Assembly: GCF_020216685.1 (NCBI RefSeq)
Contig: NZ_JAIWNS010000174.1
Location: 1 to 11,298, forward strand
DNA: 11,298 nucleotides
Reading direction: 5' to 3'
From: Methanospirillum hungatei
GTDB lineage: Archaea; Halobacteriota; Methanomicrobia; Methanomicrobiales; Methanospirillaceae
Shown here in pieces: positions 3,965-10,353 of the stretch (positions are counted from its first letter, which is position 1; each line of letters starts with the position of its first letter). The notes under the pieces are model-generated. The model searched no databases. It worked only from the letters and a program-made list of their open reading frames with translations, and was not told the DNA's origin. The position numbers and the translations under genes are program-made.

Positions 3965-4597
3965 TTAATCATCCTCTATGATGTCAGGAAACAGAATATC
4001 AGCGATGATGTGCGCAGGGAAGAGGAAGAGCCAGAAATAGAGGGCGAAAGACGGCCTGATAAAAGAGAGCGGAATTGAGAGGAGAAAGATACCGGGACTG
4101 ATATAATTCTTTATTCTTGTCAGTCTGACAAAATCCTCTGGCAGATCTTTATTGATATGCATGTACCGCTTTGATGCATAGTGCCATATCAGCCCCAGCA
4201 GTAACCCGGGAGCGGCATACCCGATTGCAGCAATAATTACTGCTATCTGCAGATGACCATACTCATTGATGAGTTTTGTCACAAACGGCATCATAATGAT
4301 GAACAGCAGGAAAAAGGTATTCAGCCGCATCAGAATACCGTCATACCCGACGATAAATCTGAAGATCCGGTGATGATTTGACCAGTATGCTGCAGTGATG
4401 ATAAAGGTCAGGAAAAAGTAGAGGAACCGGGAGTATTCATCAGCAAGTCCCTGGACCAGAAGTGCATCCTGCTGTTTCTGGAGATCGGGAACGACCAGAT
4501 CAATTGCCAGGAGGGTCAGGGAAAATGCAAAGACTGCATCACTAATCCCGATAATACGGTCCAGACCACGCCGTTCGTAATAATCACTTCTTTTCAT
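3965..4597 (-). CDS. TMEM175/DUF1211-family potassium channel
   Basis: The protein has 210 residues with about six membrane segments. The family signature is at the N-terminus: RIIGISDAVFAFSLTLL (residues 14-30). This is the R-x3-[FI]-S-D motif whose helix lines the pore in TMEM175 channels; here Ile replaces the usual Phe of FSD. YWSNHHRIFR and LNTFFLLFIIMMPF match the conserved segments of membrane helices 3 and 4. Prokaryotic members are tetramers of a single six-helix repeat and conduct K+. The frame is open back to 4798, but I set the start at ATG 4597: GGAGGAG lies 4 nt upstream, the protein then begins MKRSDYYERRGLDR as expected for the family, and the longer form would overlap the upstream gene. 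It is the second gene of an operon, 13 nt after the VIT1-like gene. The C-terminus is acidic (DIIEDD). Confidence 0.87.
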   Translation of the reverse strand: MKRSDYYERRGLDRIIGISDAVFAFSLTLLAIDLVVPDLQKQQDALLVQGLADEYSRFLYFFLTFIITAAYWSNHHRIFRFIVGYDGILMRLNTFFLLFIIMMPFVTKLINEYGHLQIAVIIAAIGYAAPGLLLGLIWHYASKRYMHINKDLPEDFVRLTRIKNYISPGIFLLSIPLSFIRPSFALYFWLFLFPAHIIADILFPDIIEDD

Positions 4598-4610
4598 GCA
4601 CTCCTCCGGA

Positions 4611-5309
4611 TTATGAGAGCAATATACCGACAAACACACCGGCAAGAGCGGCAGCAAGGGCAATTCCCATCGTTTCCATGACTGTCCGGACCGGACTTCT
4701 GTTGCTGATCCGTGCCCGGCCAATACCAAGGAGGAGGAGCAGGATTGCAGTAACCACGATACAGATGATCCAGGCGGTGTGCATCGGGAATAAGACAAAG
4801 GGAATGACCGGAGTCAGACCGGCAAAGAGATCTGACAGAAACATCCAGATTGAATGGATCACGGGGGATGTCTTCTGCCCGATAGTCTTCTGACTGGCAG
4901 CGATCGCCGTTTCTAATCCGGATATGGTGGCAGGATTTTTTGAGATATCTGCATGAATGGAGTTGATGGTCTGCTGTGAGAGGCCTGAATTCTGAAGCAG
5001 CCCCATCAGATCTGATACTGCTCCCTCAGGGTTTTCATTGATTGCAGCAATCCGCTCCTGGTTCTCTTCCTCTTCTTCGTCCCGTTCAGACTCAATCTCC
5101 ATAAAGCAGCCGGCCATCATCGAGACCGAGGCTGCAATGGCTCCGGTGGCACCGGCAAGGACAACAGCATTGGCAGAGTCTGCTCCAGCAGCAACACCAA
5201 GGACCAGACCCAGAATAGATACAGTCCCATCTGACATCCCAAAGACGACTTCGCCATATGAAGCCGCCAGCGATTGTTTAATACGTGATATGAACGACTC
5301 TTCCGACAT
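4611..5309 (-). CDS. VIT1/CCC1-family (DUF125) metal ion transporter
   Basis: The protein has 232 residues. The first membrane helix contains EVVFGMSDGTVSILGLVLGV (residues 20-39), the signature of the vacuolar iron transporter family, with the metal-route Asp27. The second helix ends SVSMMAGCFMEIESERDEEE (61-80). Family members usually have Gly-Glu where this protein has Gly67-Cys68. The cytoplasmic stretch after it is very acidic (Glu72, Glu74, Asp77, Glu78-Glu82), corresponding to the family's metal-binding domain. Three more membrane segments follow at about 157-175, 178-196 and 213-231. The expected role is Fe2+ or Mn2+ transport, probably proton-coupled efflux in a cell without vacuoles. 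A possible AGGT Shine-Dalgarno lies 9 nt before the ATG. The pairing with a K+ channel gene suggests cation homeostasis; the metal specificity is open. Confidence 0.87.
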   Translation of the reverse strand: MSEESFISRIKQSLAASYGEVVFGMSDGTVSILGLVLGVAAGADSANAVVLAGATGAIAASVSMMAGCFMEIESERDEEEEENQERIAAINENPEGAVSDLMGLLQNSGLSQQTINSIHADISKNPATISGLETAIAASQKTIGQKTSPVIHSIWMFLSDLFAGLTPVIPFVLFPMHTAWIICIVVTAILLLLLGIGRARISNRSPVRTVMETMGIALAAALAGVFVGILLS

Positions 5310-5575: not shown

Positions 5576-5585
5576 TTTATATATT
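5576..5585 (+). promoter_or_regulatory. TATA box of the dipeptidase-AcnX-ferredoxin operon
   Basis: TTTATATATT is a near-ideal archaeal TATA box. Its centre is about 27 nt before the ATG at 5607, so transcription is predicted to begin at or within a few bases of the start codon. A GAGGA at 5590-5594 is about 12 nt from the ATG and would lie upstream of the predicted transcript start. Confidence 0.55.
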
Positions 5586-5606: not shown

Positions 5607-7409
5607 ATGGTAGAGTGGAGGCTAATTCCAGTTATTCTCCTAATTTTGATGGGTTTTATCCCGTCAGGACTTGGATGTACAACCTTTGTTGTTACTAATG
5701 AAGCATCAGAGGATGGTTCCACGTTTGTCGGACATTCAAATGACGGGTTTGGACCTGGTCTGATCGGGCACCAGATCCGGGAGGATATGATTTCATTTCG
5801 TCATATCATCGCAAAAGATCATCCGGCAGGGGCAATGAGGCCTGTTGTGTATGATCCTAACAGTGGTGGAGAGTTCCTTGGCGAAGCAGCTGCATCAGAC
5901 ACTGAAACGATCATAATCGGTGAGATTCCCCAGGTCAACCATACGTATGCCTACATTACCGGAAGTTACGGGATAATTAATGAACATCAGCTCATGACCG
6001 GAGAATGCACGGACTATGCAAAGATTCATCCTGGGGCAGAGAAGGGGAAACGCATCTTTTACAGTTCTGAACTCTCCAATATCGCACTTGAACGATGTAA
6101 AACAGCAAAAGAGGCAGTGATTCTCATAGGGGACCTTATCGACACCTATGGATATTACGGAACCGGTGAGACTCTCATCTTTGCCGACCCATCAGACGCC
6201 TGGGTTATCGAGATGTGTGGCGGAACTCCTGACGGGACCGGAGGGTACTGGGCTGCCCAGAGAATTCCTCCTGGTGAGATCTTTGTTGCCGCAAATGAGT
6301 TCAGGATTCGGGAACTTTCTGAGGATAACCCTGATCAGATATTTGGGAAAAACCTCAAAGATGATGCACAGACGATGGGCTGGTGGAAACCGGAAGACGG
6401 CCCCCTTGACTGGGCACAGGTGTTTGGCATCGGTGAATATTCGCATCCCTACTACTCTCAGGGCAGAGTATGGAGAATCTTTGACCGTCTGGCCCCGTCA
6501 CTGGGTCTCTCACCCTATGTCGAAGGTCCGTTCTCAAAGGCATATCCCTTCTCAATTAAGCCGGATGCTCCGGTAAACATCACAAATGCACTCTCCATCT
6601 TCCGGGATCATTATGAAGGAACGGTATATGATCTGACTGCACCCCCTGCAGGAGGTCCGTTTGGTGATCCCTACCGGGTATGGGGTCCGTTTGATCTGCA
6701 TGACGCTCCCTATGAAGGACAGTTAAAACCCGGGTCCTGGCCACGACCGATATCTACCGATCCGTGTGGATACTCATATGTCTGTCAGGGCCGATCTGAT
6801 CTCCCTGATCCTATCGGCGGGATCTGCTGGCTTGGGTTATCATCTCCTGCAGAGACGTGTTATCTTCCGTTCTATGCCGGAATATATCACATGCCGGCAC
6901 CGTATCTCCACGGTTCCCACTGGGAGTTTGATTTAAATACTGCATTCTGGCCATATGAACTGCTTCAGAATTATGCACGGCTCATGTACAGTTACATGGC
7001 TCCAGAAATTAAGGCTGAACAGGAGCGGATCGAGGGGGCGGCAATCGCGAACCAGTCGGCAATTGAAGCAAAAGCGCTTGAACTCTACAAGACGAACGAA
7101 CGATCTGCACGGGAATTCCTGACAGAATATTCCAGCGAGACGGCATTGCATGCACTCGATGACTGGAAAAAACTCATGGGGAAGATGATTGTGACGTACC
7201 GAAACGGGAATTACAATGATGTTGATAATAAAACCATCAGCAATATCGGGTATCCTGACTGGTGGTATGAATATGCCCGGTATCAGTACGGTCCACGGGT
7301 ATATGATATTCAAGGATTACAGGCGATTCCTGACGTAAAATATGTCGGGGAGGAAGTAAATATCACAGGAGATCCACTCACCTATATTGCGACGTATCAG
7401 ACCGGATAA
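5607..7409 (+). CDS. secreted C69-family dipeptidase-like Ntn hydrolase
   Basis: The protein has 600 residues. An N-terminal signal peptide (residues 1-23: a WR charge, then a hydrophobic core of about 14 residues ending in SGLG) is followed directly by CTTFVVTNEASEDGSTFVGH. Family C69 enzymes use the N-terminal cysteine exposed by cleavage as nucleophile, so Cys24 is the predicted catalytic residue. The following DGS and HSNDG match the conserved family segment, and EHQLMTGECTDYAKI and FADPSDAWVIEMCG match further conserved blocks as I know them. Family members such as lactobacillus PepD cleave dipeptides. The signal peptide predicts action outside the cell. The protein is longer than the roughly 470-residue cytoplasmic PepD, with extra length in the C-terminal half. 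It is first in an operon with the AcnX gene 13 nt downstream. The substrate is not shown; amidase or acylase activity is an alternative. Confidence 0.83.
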   Translation: MVEWRLIPVILLILMGFIPSGLGCTTFVVTNEASEDGSTFVGHSNDGFGPGLIGHQIREDMISFRHIIAKDHPAGAMRPVVYDPNSGGEFLGEAAASDTETIIIGEIPQVNHTYAYITGSYGIINEHQLMTGECTDYAKIHPGAEKGKRIFYSSELSNIALERCKTAKEAVILIGDLIDTYGYYGTGETLIFADPSDAWVIEMCGGTPDGTGGYWAAQRIPPGEIFVAANEFRIRELSEDNPDQIFGKNLKDDAQTMGWWKPEDGPLDWAQVFGIGEYSHPYYSQGRVWRIFDRLAPSLGLSPYVEGPFSKAYPFSIKPDAPVNITNALSIFRDHYEGTVYDLTAPPAGGPFGDPYRVWGPFDLHDAPYEGQLKPGSWPRPISTDPCGYSYVCQGRSDLPDPIGGICWLGLSSPAETCYLPFYAGIYHMPAPYLHGSHWEFDLNTAFWPYELLQNYARLMYSYMAPEIKAEQERIEGAAIANQSAIEAKALELYKTNERSAREFLTEYSSETALHALDDWKKLMGKMIVTYRNGNYNDVDNKTISNIGYPDWWYEYARYQYGPRVYDIQGLQAIPDVKYVGEEVNITGDPLTYIATYQTG

Positions 7410-7422
7410 ATGAGGGCTCATT

Positions 7423-9222
7423 ATGCAGAATAATGAAAATCCTATTATTTTGAGGGGAATTACCAGAGTTGAAGGAAATGCTGAAGGAGAAGCTCTGGCC
7501 ACTTCAAGTTTTTTAAGCCACCTCGTGAATGCAGTCACTTCTGACGGGATTATCAGGATATTCGGCCATCCTCTTGTTGGACAGTCGTATGCCGGTAAGA
7601 TTGTGGTATATGACACTGACAAATTCTCTACCGGGGGTGCCTGGGGCCTTTATTTCAAGGCAAAGGTGACAAATGCAGCACCAAAGGCTCTCATCTGTCG
7701 GACTGTCCATCCGATCAGTATTGGTGGTGCCATTGATGCCGGGATTCCTGCAGTTGACTCTTTTGATGTGGACCCATGGACTGTTATTCAGACCGGTGAT
7801 TATGTAAAGATAACTGCACCAAAGGCAGGAGATGAAGGGATTATTGAGATATATCCAAAAGATCCTGCACGGCGAGCAGAACTGGCAGATTTAAAATCCT
7901 CACCAAAAAAAGGGTGGGAAAAAAGTAACGTCTCACTTACCCTCTATGAACAGGAGATGCTAGCCGGAAAGCATGGCAGACCAAAACAGATAGCCATGGA
8001 ACGATTGGTAAAATTTGCTGAAGGGATGGGATCAAAACGTATGGTGCCGATATGTTCCGCCCACCTCTTTGATGATCATCAGAGTCGTGATTATACCGTC
8101 GGGGCATGGCCTGCATTTGAAGAGTTCGCGAATATGGGGGCCAGGGTAAGAGTGCCGACCACGGTTGAGAGTACAGCCATGGGAGATGACCTTGTCGATG
8201 ATGAAGGGATGCCCTGGCATTATTCCGTTATGGCACCGGCCAGAGAAGTGTTCAAGGGGATGGTTCCGGTTCATGAAAATCTGAAGAAGATGGGTGCTAC
8301 GGTAATCCCGACCTGTATCCCCTATGCCCACCTGGCTCCGCCAAAATTTGGTGAAATCCTCGTTACTTCAGAGTCGAACGCTGCTGCATACAGTAATATC
8401 ATGATTGGAGCGAGGGTAAACAGGGACCCTGCGAACATGGTCCTCTACGCTGCAATAACCGGTGTTATGCCTGAATACGGGGTTCACTTGCCGGAGAACC
8501 GGATCGGTCAGATGATCTTTGAGGTTGACCCTGCCGTAGTACAGGAACTTGATGATGTCGGGGATTATGTTGCACTTGGCGGAGCAATCGGGTTTCGGGC
8601 TGGCGACCGGGTACCTGTTGTATGTGGGCTGGAACGGATGACAAATGCTCAGGCAAAGGCATTTTGTGCCTGTGTATCCCCTGCACTGACCTATCCCATG
8701 ATCCATATCGTTGGCATCACTCCTGAAGCAAGGACGATTGAAGAGGCTTTCGGAGGGGAGATCCCTAAGGATGTTGAGCGTGTTCATATCACCAAATCAG
8801 ATCTTGCGGCGGTGTATCAGAACCTTCGACAGACAGAGAAGACCAGTATTGATGCAGCGGTTATCGGCTGTCCGTTTTTGATGTTTGAAGAACTCGCAGA
8901 TATTGCTGAGATGCTGAATGGACAGAAGGTAACCACACGGCTCTGGCTCTACACCGACTATGTGAATTACAGTGCAGCGAAAAAGGCAGGTATCCTTGAG
9001 AAGATAGAGGCCAGCGGAGCACGGGTCGTGCATTCATCCTGTCCGGGTATGGTCGTCAGGGCACCTGCGGATGCGGAGAACCTTGTCTTTGCCACCGACA
9101 GCCTGAAAGTTGCTATGCTCTTTGCCGGTATAGGCTGGCCGAAGAACTGGCTTGGAACACGAAAAGATGTCATCCAGGCAGCGATAACCGGCACGTATGT
9201 TCAGACTAAGTGGCTGAACTGA
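7423..9222 (+). CDS. single-chain aconitase X (DUF126 swivel + DUF521 catalytic domain)
   Basis: The 599-residue cytoplasmic protein has two domains. Residues about 8-146 are the swivel domain (DUF126): TDKFSTGGAWGLY holds the conserved Ser69, and HPISIGGAIDAGIPAVDSF is the second block. Residues about 170-595 are the DUF521 domain: LYEQEMLAGKHG, VPTCIPYAHLAPPKFGEI, SESNAAAYSNIMIGARVNRD and GVMPEYGVHLPENR are family blocks. Candidate Fe-S ligands are Cys298, Cys483 and Cys540. AcnX enzymes are (de)hydratases. Known reactions are phosphomevalonate 5-phosphate dehydration in archaeal isoprenoid synthesis and cis-3-hydroxy-L-proline dehydration in bacteria. The archaeal mevalonate enzymes are normally two separate chains, so this fused form may serve another substrate. 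The usual GCPH motif reads GCPF (481-485 region). GAGGG sits 6 nt before the ATG. The operon context, peptidase before and Fe-S protein after, favours amino-acid-derived substrates, which is inference. Confidence 0.85.
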   Translation: MQNNENPIILRGITRVEGNAEGEALATSSFLSHLVNAVTSDGIIRIFGHPLVGQSYAGKIVVYDTDKFSTGGAWGLYFKAKVTNAAPKALICRTVHPISIGGAIDAGIPAVDSFDVDPWTVIQTGDYVKITAPKAGDEGIIEIYPKDPARRAELADLKSSPKKGWEKSNVSLTLYEQEMLAGKHGRPKQIAMERLVKFAEGMGSKRMVPICSAHLFDDHQSRDYTVGAWPAFEEFANMGARVRVPTTVESTAMGDDLVDDEGMPWHYSVMAPAREVFKGMVPVHENLKKMGATVIPTCIPYAHLAPPKFGEILVTSESNAAAYSNIMIGARVNRDPANMVLYAAITGVMPEYGVHLPENRIGQMIFEVDPAVVQELDDVGDYVALGGAIGFRAGDRVPVVCGLERMTNAQAKAFCACVSPALTYPMIHIVGITPEARTIEEAFGGEIPKDVERVHITKSDLAAVYQNLRQTEKTSIDAAVIGCPFLMFEELADIAEMLNGQKVTTRLWLYTDYVNYSAAKKAGILEKIEASGARVVHSSCPGMVVRAPADAENLVFATDSLKVAMLFAGIGWPKNWLGTRKDVIQAAITGTYVQTKWLN

Positions 9223-9255
9223 TATCCTCTTTCTTTCCCAGGGTGGAGAAACATT

Positions 9256-10353
9256 ATGGATGTATATAAACGATTAGCAAAGAAACTGGATGAATTGCCA
9301 CAGGGGTTCCCCTCTACCGATACAGGGGTTGAACTTAGGATCTTACAGATCATCTTCTCCCCTGAAGATGCAGAGATGGCACTCCAGATGACGCCGGCTC
9401 CTGAGACTGCGGAACAGGTTGCCGCAAGACTTTCAAAACCGGTTGAGGAGACCCGTGCAATGCTGGATCAGATGGCTGAAAAGGGACAGATAGGCTCACT
9501 ATCAATAGGAGGACAGCAGGTCTACCGGCTTATTCCTTTTGTCATTGGGATCTTTGAATTTCAACGTAAAGAAAGATTAACAAAAGAACTTGCCGAACTC
9601 ATCGAAGAGTACGGTCCCCATCTCATGAAGGTTACTGGGGGTCATGCACCTCATATCGCTCGTGTCATACCGGTCAATGCCGCAATTCCAACCGATCTTC
9701 AGGTGCTCCAGCAGGATGATATCCGTCAAATCATCAATAATGCCAAATCATTCAGGGTTCAGGACTGTATCTGTCGGAAAGAGAAGAACCTTCTGGGAGA
9801 TCCCTGTAAACATTCCATTCATAACTGTATCCAATATTCCATGGAAGAGAACGCCTTTGATTACTTCAATCCGGAGGGCGAGATCATCACCAGGGAAGAG
9901 GCGTTACAAATACTAGAGAAGAACAGCCAGGAAGGGCTGGTTCACACTACCTATAACATAATGAATGTCCCCGGAGGCTTTCTCTGCAGTTGTTGTTCCT
10001 GCAGTTGTGCGATGATACGGGCTCTGAAGGAGTTCAAGGCCCCATATATGATTGCCAAAAGCAACTATATGGCCCATATCGATGAGGATGCCTGTATTGC
10101 ATGTGGGATCTGCAGGGATGAACGCTGCCCGATGGATGCGATCGCTAATGAGGATGGAGAATTTCGGGTTTTAAAAGAACGATGTATCGGGTGTGGTGTA
10201 TGTATCATCACCTGTCCTTCCAAAGCACTGAGCCTGATTGAAAGGCCTGTGCATGAGCGTGATCCGATAGCGACGGATGTAACCGAATGGGGAAAGATGC
10301 GGATGGAAAATCGCATGCATGATGAACAGAAGACCCAGAGTGTTCCAAAATGA
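9256..10353 (+). CDS. Fe-S protein: winged-helix-like N-terminus, Cys-rich centre, C-terminal 2[4Fe-4S] ferredoxin
   Basis: The protein has 365 residues. Residues about 25-100 look like a winged helix (TAEQVAARLSKPVEETRAML, then an EKGQI wing and IPFVIGIFEFQ). The centre has Cys171-x-Cys173-Arg, Cys184 and Cys191, and then a dense CSCCSCSC block (Cys244, 246, 247, 249, 251), with spacing able to bind one or two metal centres. The C-terminus is a bacterial-type ferredoxin: Cys280, 283, 286 and 291 (Cx2Cx2Cx4C, one residue longer than usual) and Cys310, 313, 316 and 320 with CP after the last cluster. A family with this layout is widespread in anaerobes, to my recollection without a proven role. 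GGTGGAG lies 7 nt before the ATG, and the gene starts 33 nt after AcnX, so it belongs to the same operon. The likely role is electron transfer linked to AcnX products or a redox-sensing regulator. Confidence 0.82.
   Translation: MDVYKRLAKKLDELPQGFPSTDTGVELRILQIIFSPEDAEMALQMTPAPETAEQVAARLSKPVEETRAMLDQMAEKGQIGSLSIGGQQVYRLIPFVIGIFEFQRKERLTKELAELIEEYGPHLMKVTGGHAPHIARVIPVNAAIPTDLQVLQQDDIRQIINNAKSFRVQDCICRKEKNLLGDPCKHSIHNCIQYSMEENAFDYFNPEGEIITREEALQILEKNSQEGLVHTTYNIMNVPGGFLCSCCSCSCAMIRALKEFKAPYMIAKSNYMAHIDEDACIACGICRDERCPMDAIANEDGEFRVLKERCIGCGVCIITCPSKALSLIERPVHERDPIATDVTEWGKMRMENRMHDEQKTQSVPK

Follow-up and report, generated by a model that had tools for sequence, protein, structure and literature searches.

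What does a single-chain aconitase X (AcnX) do in a methanogenic archaeon, and which of its neighbors belong with it? The question is raised by a stretch of 11,298 nucleotides (nt) from Methanospirillum hungatei (contig NZ_JAIWNS010000174.1 of assembly GCF_020216685.1; hereafter the window), in which an AcnX gene lies between genes for a secreted peptidase-like protein and a cysteine-rich iron-sulfur protein (hereafter the partner). The analyses below give good support to a two-gene module composed of AcnX and the partner, and tilt slightly toward the view that the enzyme is a third functional kind of AcnX, whose substrate would be a free 3-hydroxy acid / 2-enoate pair without a phosphate group and which a dedicated iron-sulfur protein would serve. 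The pair is real, rare and conserved; its enzymatic role is probably new and would lie in the metabolism of small organic acids. AcnX has two known functions, and the bacterial types IIc–IIf have none, according to the accessible sections of PMC10040528 and PMC8184944. The accessible portions of the literature found (including PMC5144071, PMC10040528, PMC11052028, PMC4704411 and PMC8184944) hold no description of an AcnX/iron-sulfur module; in the main text of the M. hungatei JF1 genome paper, to the extent that it was available, ‘aconitase’ and ‘peptidase’ each occur zero times. A third function of AcnX becomes directly testable with a discrete clade that has cluster and pocket residues of its own, a dedicated partner and a catabolic neighborhood that can be read.

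Three open reading frames (ORFs) follow one another on the forward strand and encode 600, 599 and 365 amino acids (aa), with intergenic gaps of 13 and then 33 nt. An earlier note on this DNA had described these genes, and its positions, gaps and named domains are all confirmed. It had also claimed Shine-Dalgarno elements for the second and third genes; plausible ones are visible by eye, ATGAGGGCTCATTATG preceding the AcnX gene and GGTGGAGAAACATTATG preceding the iron-sulfur protein gene. Before the peptidase gene, inspection by eye found only TTTATATA, 31 nt ahead of the ATG. The operon observation holds: judged by spacing, the three genes would form one operon. The features are as follows.

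5576..5583, forward strand: TATA-like element, read from the sequence, its role presumed.
5607..7409, forward strand: secreted C69 peptidase-like protein (Pfam Peptidase_C69, 170 bits); same operon by spacing, judged to lie outside the conserved module.
7423..9222, forward strand: single-chain AcnX, 599 aa, the core of the module (ORF; PF01989 and PF04412; clade; model; PDB matches 7d2r/7cnq/7cnp).
7513..7755, forward strand: AcnX swivel domain, residues 31–111, with putative general base Ser69, then Thr70 (Pfam; residue mapping).
7933..9177, forward strand: AcnX catalytic domain, residues 171–585 (Pfam; residue mapping).
9256..10353, forward strand: iron-sulfur partner protein, 365 aa (ORF; 4Fe-4S domains in Pfam; model).
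9325..9528, forward strand: winged-helix-like N-terminal part of the partner, residues about 24–91 (model secondary structure; weak Foldseek matches).
9643..10050, forward strand: cysteine-rich middle part of the partner (alignment; without a Pfam match in the window protein).
10069..10245, forward strand: 2[4Fe-4S] ferredoxin domain of the partner (Pfam; alignment).

The AcnX chain passes the cut-offs of both superfamily profiles (PF04412, AcnX, 385 bits against 31.5; PF01989, AcnX_swivel_put, 76.9 bits against 27). Its best NCBIfam match is the type I family, yet at 227.7 bits against a cut-off of 700. The AlphaFold model (mean predicted local distance difference test score (pLDDT) 84.9) aligns with the type I structure along almost its entire length and with each type IIb subunit over the corresponding part; the best PDB matches are 7d2r/7cnq/7cnp, with a template-modelling (TM) score on the query of 0.81 for type I. 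Like type I AcnX (7CNP), the window protein is a single chain ordered 4-linker-1-2-3 with the same overall fold.

The residues set the window AcnX apart from both known types. Sites listed in the accessible part of PMC8184944 were mapped onto the two solved AcnX types and then followed through the 18 sequences of the clade of fused (single-chain) proteins to which the window AcnX belongs. All 18 keep the type IIb cluster cysteines (110, 283 and 342; window Cys298, Cys483 and Cys540), the active-site Glu, Ser and Lys (window Glu317, Ser318 and Lys562) and the swivel-domain Ser-Thr (window Ser69-Thr70). Type IIb, the archaeal phosphomevalonate dehydratase (PMDh; 7CNR/7CNS), thus has the same three cysteines, Glu, Ser and Lys as the window, but consists of two chains rather than one of 599 aa, falls in another clade, and carries Asn79 (phosphate) and Tyr365 (carboxylate water) where the window has Glu249 and Leu566. 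Type I shares the Ser, Glu, Lys and two cysteines (273 and 508, equivalent to Cys298 and Cys540), whereas its third cluster cysteine lies elsewhere: position 510 is Gly in 17 of the 18 sequences (window Gly542) and His in one. Type I is also a separate clade, and its sites Trp35, Thr72, Asp203 and Tyr534 are not kept (window Leu34, Gly71, Phe216 and Leu566). Across the fused clade the Tyr365 (type IIb)/Tyr534 (type I) site is invariably Leu, the Asp203/Ala47 site invariably Phe, and the Asn79/233 site Glu in 13 sequences and Gln in five. According to the accessible part of PMC8184944, both known types use the Tyr for the substrate carboxylate, Asn79 of type IIb touches the phosphate of mevalonate 5-phosphate, and Asp203 of type I holds the proline nitrogen; an acidic residue at the Asn site, as in the window, would disfavor a phosphorylated substrate. 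On this mapping the residues of the window AcnX match neither the hydroxyproline enzyme nor the phosphomevalonate enzyme. The earlier note had proposed a third AcnX role within a pathway led by the peptidase: the residue pattern speaks for the new role, and the peptidase-led pathway fares badly (see below).

Phylogeny places the enzyme in the same way. In a tree of 64 large-domain sequences (all trees midpoint-rooted) the fused clade forms one side of a branch with support of 100/100; opposite it (100/100) are PMDh, type I and P0045, an odd fused protein. The clade adjoins a bacterial group of 34 sequences, hand-picked from the protein-search matches listed (120 of 135 in one search), that are mostly two-chain as judged by length, four being single-chain. 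A smaller set, rebuilt without the longest sequences, recovers the fused clade at 98/99. Grouping the fused clade with type I was rejected at p-AU 0.0002 (a single type I sequence on a long branch), and grouping it with PMDh at p-AU 8e-7 (long branches present); the groups for these tests were chosen after the first tree had been inspected. Rejection of the type I grouping suggests that the chain fusion probably arose independently of type I. Further single-chain AcnX proteins (P0045, P0207, P0216, P0233 and P0272) lie outside the window's clade, so fusion of the AcnX parts has seemingly occurred several times.

The window AcnX and a 90%-identical relative, P0002, sit inside the fused clade, and the smaller tree leaves the exact place of this pair open; among the other 16 sequences, P0011 and P0012 carry bacterial names. 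The clade is also found in Desulfobacterota and in Tritonobacter. Transfer of the AcnX pair from bacteria to the methanogens is likely on these sequences, but weakly based. In common with the window's clade, all 34 sequences of the bacterial group carry Leu or Ile at the Tyr site, and 33 carry an acidic residue at the Asn site. The group differs in that it has about 40% identity to the window AcnX, is two-chain in each of the three loci that were read, and does not share Phe216. It may be one of types IIc–IIf.

The window's genome contains a second, ordinary AcnX large subunit on contig 41 (L044, 2310–5276). Genes of the UbiD and UbiX families adjoin it, the kind of neighbors that an archaeal mevalonate pathway gene should have. 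The window enzyme thus need not be the phosphomevalonate dehydratase, and the finding that the earlier note said would overturn its proposal, namely that this AcnX is the organism's sole phosphomevalonate dehydratase, is unlikely.

Is the association with the partner more than local? We surveyed 199 genomes of the window's order and 395 genomes of the phylum (which we take to be Desulfobacterota) of a bacterial genome with the pair, G200; per genome the best 10 and the best 5 partner candidates were scored, respectively. In the order, 187 of 199 genomes match the AcnX query at E ≤ 1e-20, but full-length relatives (E 0, 81–100% identity) occur in three: the window's genome, G156 of the same genus, and G023. 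The best E-value in the remainder is 7e-48 or weaker. The same three hold a full-length partner (in two frames in G156), and five more match it over residues 125–334 only. In the phylum of G200 an AcnX at E ≤ 1e-100, a threshold that would miss weaker two-chain AcnX, is present in three of 395 genomes: G200 and G414 (fused) and G558 (two-chain). A partner-family protein at E ≤ 1e-90 is found in 12; only G200, G414 and G558 reach 60–61% partner identity, and the other 13 matches (nine genomes) have at most 54%. The chance of this coincidence is 9.8e-8, assuming independent genomes. Searches with both AcnX forms (tblastn) detected none in nine of the 13 lower-identity partner loci (flanks of 2.4–8.8 kb) and none in three loci of G200 partner paralogues. 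By rank, AcnX at E ≤ 1e-80 occurs in 1 of 85 genomes (order of G200), 1 of 29 (class of G414) and 3 of 63 (class of G558: G558, G742 and G743), and at E ≤ 1e-100 in 1 of 44 genomes of the phylum of G199 (Tritonobacter lacicola).

An initial contig scan gave at least four loci, to which later searches added G414, G558, G742 and G743. The partner lies near AcnX in eight of nine evaluable loci (the window, G156, G023, G414, G200, G558, G742 and G743), within about 170 nt in five of the eight and at 2.1 to 6.5 kb in the others. A second AcnX of G200 (L041) stands at a contig edge, preceded by a piece of a TRAP gene, and was left out. AcnX and the iron-sulfur protein are thus a conserved pair in archaea and bacteria, and the concern that the genes occur together only in this strain falls away for the pair; all three genes were seen together only in the window and G156.

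Protein searches, two of the three scoring roughly 8000 candidates that shared most words, returned ten pairs of AcnX and partner matches with a longest contig of the same size, against 120 partner matches listed. Four of these pairs fall among the 47 AcnX matches of the first search, all within the 32 full-length ones, and six among the 112 new AcnX matches of the second, all within the nearest 24; every one of the ten paired partners has 57% or more identity to that of the window. In a partner tree of 89 sequences (16 linked to AcnX, three paralogues and 70 others in list order) all 16 linked partners fall in one subclade of 42 (95/95), where partners of fused and of two-chain AcnX are mixed. 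The other 26 members are of unknown context, two being identical to linked sequences.

The partner itself (model pLDDT 92.4) has 17 cysteines, 16 of them invariant and one kept in 42 of 45 aligned sequences: nine in the middle part (Cys171, 173, 184, 191, 244, 246, 247, 249 and 251), which has no Pfam match in the window protein, and eight in the ferredoxin domain (Cys280, 283, 286, 291, 310, 313, 316 and 320), where two CxxCxxC...CP motifs are present. By count, these would suffice for up to four clusters. The C-terminal domain resembles clostridial-type 2[4Fe-4S] ferredoxin domains, to which the partner adds the winged-helix part and the cysteine-rich middle part. A PDB fold search with the partner gave no match at E ≤ 0.001; the N-terminal part yields weak matches to ArsR/MarR-type folds, none at E ≤ 0.001, and a second look at the partner (VIA) covers mainly residues 268–336. 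Two partner paralogues in G200 (L059 and L060) occur in a duplicated neighborhood with metK-, adenosylhomocysteinase-, panC- and rsmA-like genes, as judged by eye.

Bacterial neighborhoods suggest what the enzyme may act on. Of the five bacterial loci that contain the pair, every one has an importer, four have a 3-hydroxyacid dehydrogenase and three a beta-keto-acid cleavage enzyme (BKACE); counting all six bacterial AcnX loci, TRAP genes occur in four, SBF transporters in two, the dehydrogenase in five, BKACE in three and sigma-54-type regulators in five. In G200 (L040, Desulfobacteraceae BH30) the order is BKACE, TRAP binding protein, partner, TRAP membrane protein, AcnX and 3HCDH-type dehydrogenase, with a sigma-54-type regulator on the opposite strand; in G199 (L039) it is SBF transporter, dehydrogenase and AcnX; and in G414 SBF, partner, AcnX and regulator. 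G558, G742 and G743 carry two-chain AcnX near the same partner with a dehydrogenase, TRAP genes and a regulator (the G742 contig stops inside a TRAP gene). BKACE and a carboxylase-type gene are present in G558 and G743, and an HGD-D-type pair with its activator and a MinD/ArsA-like ATPase in G558 and G742. Within two-chain AcnX clusters, L065 (10522–14780) has a second BKACE with biotin carboxylase-type genes, and L064 (4676–8905) and L058 (11293–15452) have the HGD-D pair, activator and ATPase. The earlier note was right that the window has no transporter, although its relatives carry TRAP, SBF or MFS genes close by; the MFS gene encodes 313 aa in G156 and 504 aa in G023 and was not seen in the window.

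The nearest solved protein to the linked dehydrogenase is a diketoreductase, and to the linked BKACE a 3-keto-5-aminohexanoate cleavage enzyme; the nearest solved relatives of the TRAP binding protein gave no usable ligand name. BKACE and diketoreductase act on acids other than coenzyme A (CoA) esters. The same is true of AcnX, according to the accessible part of PMC8184944, and hence we propose a chain from enoate to 3-hydroxy acid to 3-oxo acid to cleavage. The one-chain AcnX would be a [4Fe-4S]-type hydro-lyase interconverting a free 3-hydroxy acid and a 2-enoate. By homology with solved AcnX, Ser318 and Lys562 would hold the carboxylate, the open iron of a cluster on Cys298/Cys483/Cys540 would bind the 3-hydroxyl together with Glu317, and Ser69 would take the proton from C2. 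The reaction could run either way; the published assay of PMDh, whose cluster cysteines are the same, ran in the hydration direction (PMC10040528, accessible part). In several Desulfobacterota the linked dehydrogenase would probably turn the 3-hydroxy acid into a 3-oxo acid for the linked BKACE to cleave, and every stage from import through hydration and oxidation to cleavage would involve free acids. Of this set, the methanogens have AcnX and the partner alone close together; the pair may come from bacteria. Most likely, the partner would either act as an electron donor, to AcnX or to the following step, or keep a labile AcnX cluster active. In a more specific version, the module would provide the hydration step in a CoA-independent analogue of beta-oxidation in anaerobes: a free unsaturated acid is imported, hydrated by this AcnX, oxidized by the linked dehydrogenase and cleaved by BKACE with acetyl-CoA, the partner serves hydration only, and methanogens borrowed no more than the first step. 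This version we regard as tentative and rather doubtful.

A number of observations weigh against these proposals. The AcnX of G199 has no partner at E ≤ 1e-20, and the two-chain AcnX outside the nearest 24 (88 of the 112) have no partner match of the same contig size. On the partner tree the label ‘AcnX-linked’ requires 14 changes against a shuffled mean of 15.0, with 145 of 500 shuffles as low, because sequences of unknown context are mixed in. That the dehydrogenase and BKACE share one substrate route with AcnX is something we infer from gene order. No BKACE was found at E ≤ 0.001 in the eight genus genomes examined, nor in G199 or G414, and G023 has a 52-residue fragment only; the three archaeal loci (searched by tblastn as loci, not as whole genomes) gave no dehydrogenase match. 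It follows that the bacterial pathway cannot be complete in methanogens. Finally, the G156 partner gene (L042, 11730–12826) lacks one base that the window copy has, which splits it over two frames. An environmental relative, P0083, is likewise short (252 aa; 26 member sequences), and together these suggest that the partner may be dispensable there or recently lost.

These difficulties have to be set beside those of other explanations. Were the window AcnX a type I enzyme acting on cis-3-hydroxy-L-proline, its single chain with the swivel domain first and its best NCBIfam match would be accounted for. We rejected this assignment: the score is far below the cut-off, cysteine 510 has become Gly542, the pocket residues Asp203, Trp35, Thr72 and Tyr534 are not kept, and grouping with the single type I sequence fails. 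Furthermore, no proline racemase or pyrroline reductase was recognized by eye among the ORFs, no profile search having been made, and the idea is extremely improbable. A second phosphomevalonate dehydratase, that is, an isoprenoid paralogue, would explain the three cluster cysteines; membership of PMDh was likewise rejected on the changed pocket (phosphate-binding Asn79 to Glu, Tyr365 to Leu) and the rejected grouping, and since the genome already has an ordinary large subunit beside UbiD/UbiX family genes and the bacterial relatives lie in catabolic-looking clusters, we consider it highly unlikely. A different kind of doubt is that the pair is a horizontally acquired remnant, decaying and of little function in methanogens, as its rarity and patchiness in the order (3 of 199), the frameshifted partner of G156 and the unequal MFS genes might suggest. 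However, the AcnX frame is open in all three archaeal genomes and under purifying selection, the ratio of nonsynonymous to synonymous substitution rates (dN/dS) being 0.09 between the window and G156 and 0.044 between the window and G023 (synonymous changes saturated), and both halves of the frameshifted partner still have dN/dS under 0.2; a remnant is unlikely. Only a little less unlikely is the idea that the partner regulates transcription of the AcnX operon in response to redox state, with a winged helix that binds DNA and clusters that sense. The predicted fold of the N-terminus with its weak ArsR/MarR-type matches, weak matches to the TrmB family in six of 45 sequences, and the location of the gene in the same operon are consistent with such a role. 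Against it, the presumed recognition helix has a mean net charge of -0.09 and the whole winged-helix part of -1.1 (45 sequences), five of the six bacterial loci already hold sigma-54-type regulators, and 17 cysteines would exceed the needs of sensing; with a neutral helix, and with other regulators already there, DNA binding is less likely.

The pathway of the earlier note, in which a small acid released by a secreted hydrolase would enter the cell, undergo dehydration by AcnX and then be dealt with by the iron-sulfur protein, draws on the operon-like spacing in the window and G156. The peptidase has a signal-peptide-like start followed directly by Cys24, which we take to be the place of the C69 nucleophile; it passes Peptidase_C69 (170 bits against 23) but fails the NCBIfam equivalog (175.1 against 250). 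Its distribution is not that of the pair. The family occurs in 74 of the 199 order genomes, only two of which have this AcnX, while G023, the third archaeon with the pair, lacks it; outside the window and G156, copies of 76–87% identity are found in genomes without fused AcnX. Six neighborhoods of the peptidase in relatives (two short or at a contig end) contain no other homologue of a window ORF, save that in one of them a sequence several kb off distantly resembles the G156 MFS gene (24.5%), and those of G149 and G172 resemble each other. No peptidase match was obtained by tblastn in the seven bacterial AcnX loci searched. We thus rejected the peptidase as a module member; as the first step of a pathway it does not stand, no result supports a peptide or amide substrate, and the three-gene pathway is very unlikely. 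Most likely the peptidase is a bystander: its gene would have been there first, and the pair would have arrived downstream of it.

Elsewhere in the window, the reverse strand encodes a small HNH protein (1572–2063) whose best NCBIfam match is an IscB nuclease model (61.1 bits against a cut-off of 175), and a TMEM175-type channel ORF that overlaps a VIT1-type transporter ORF (3965–5309). Near-identical ORFs of the latter pair occur in the same order in G156 (L042).

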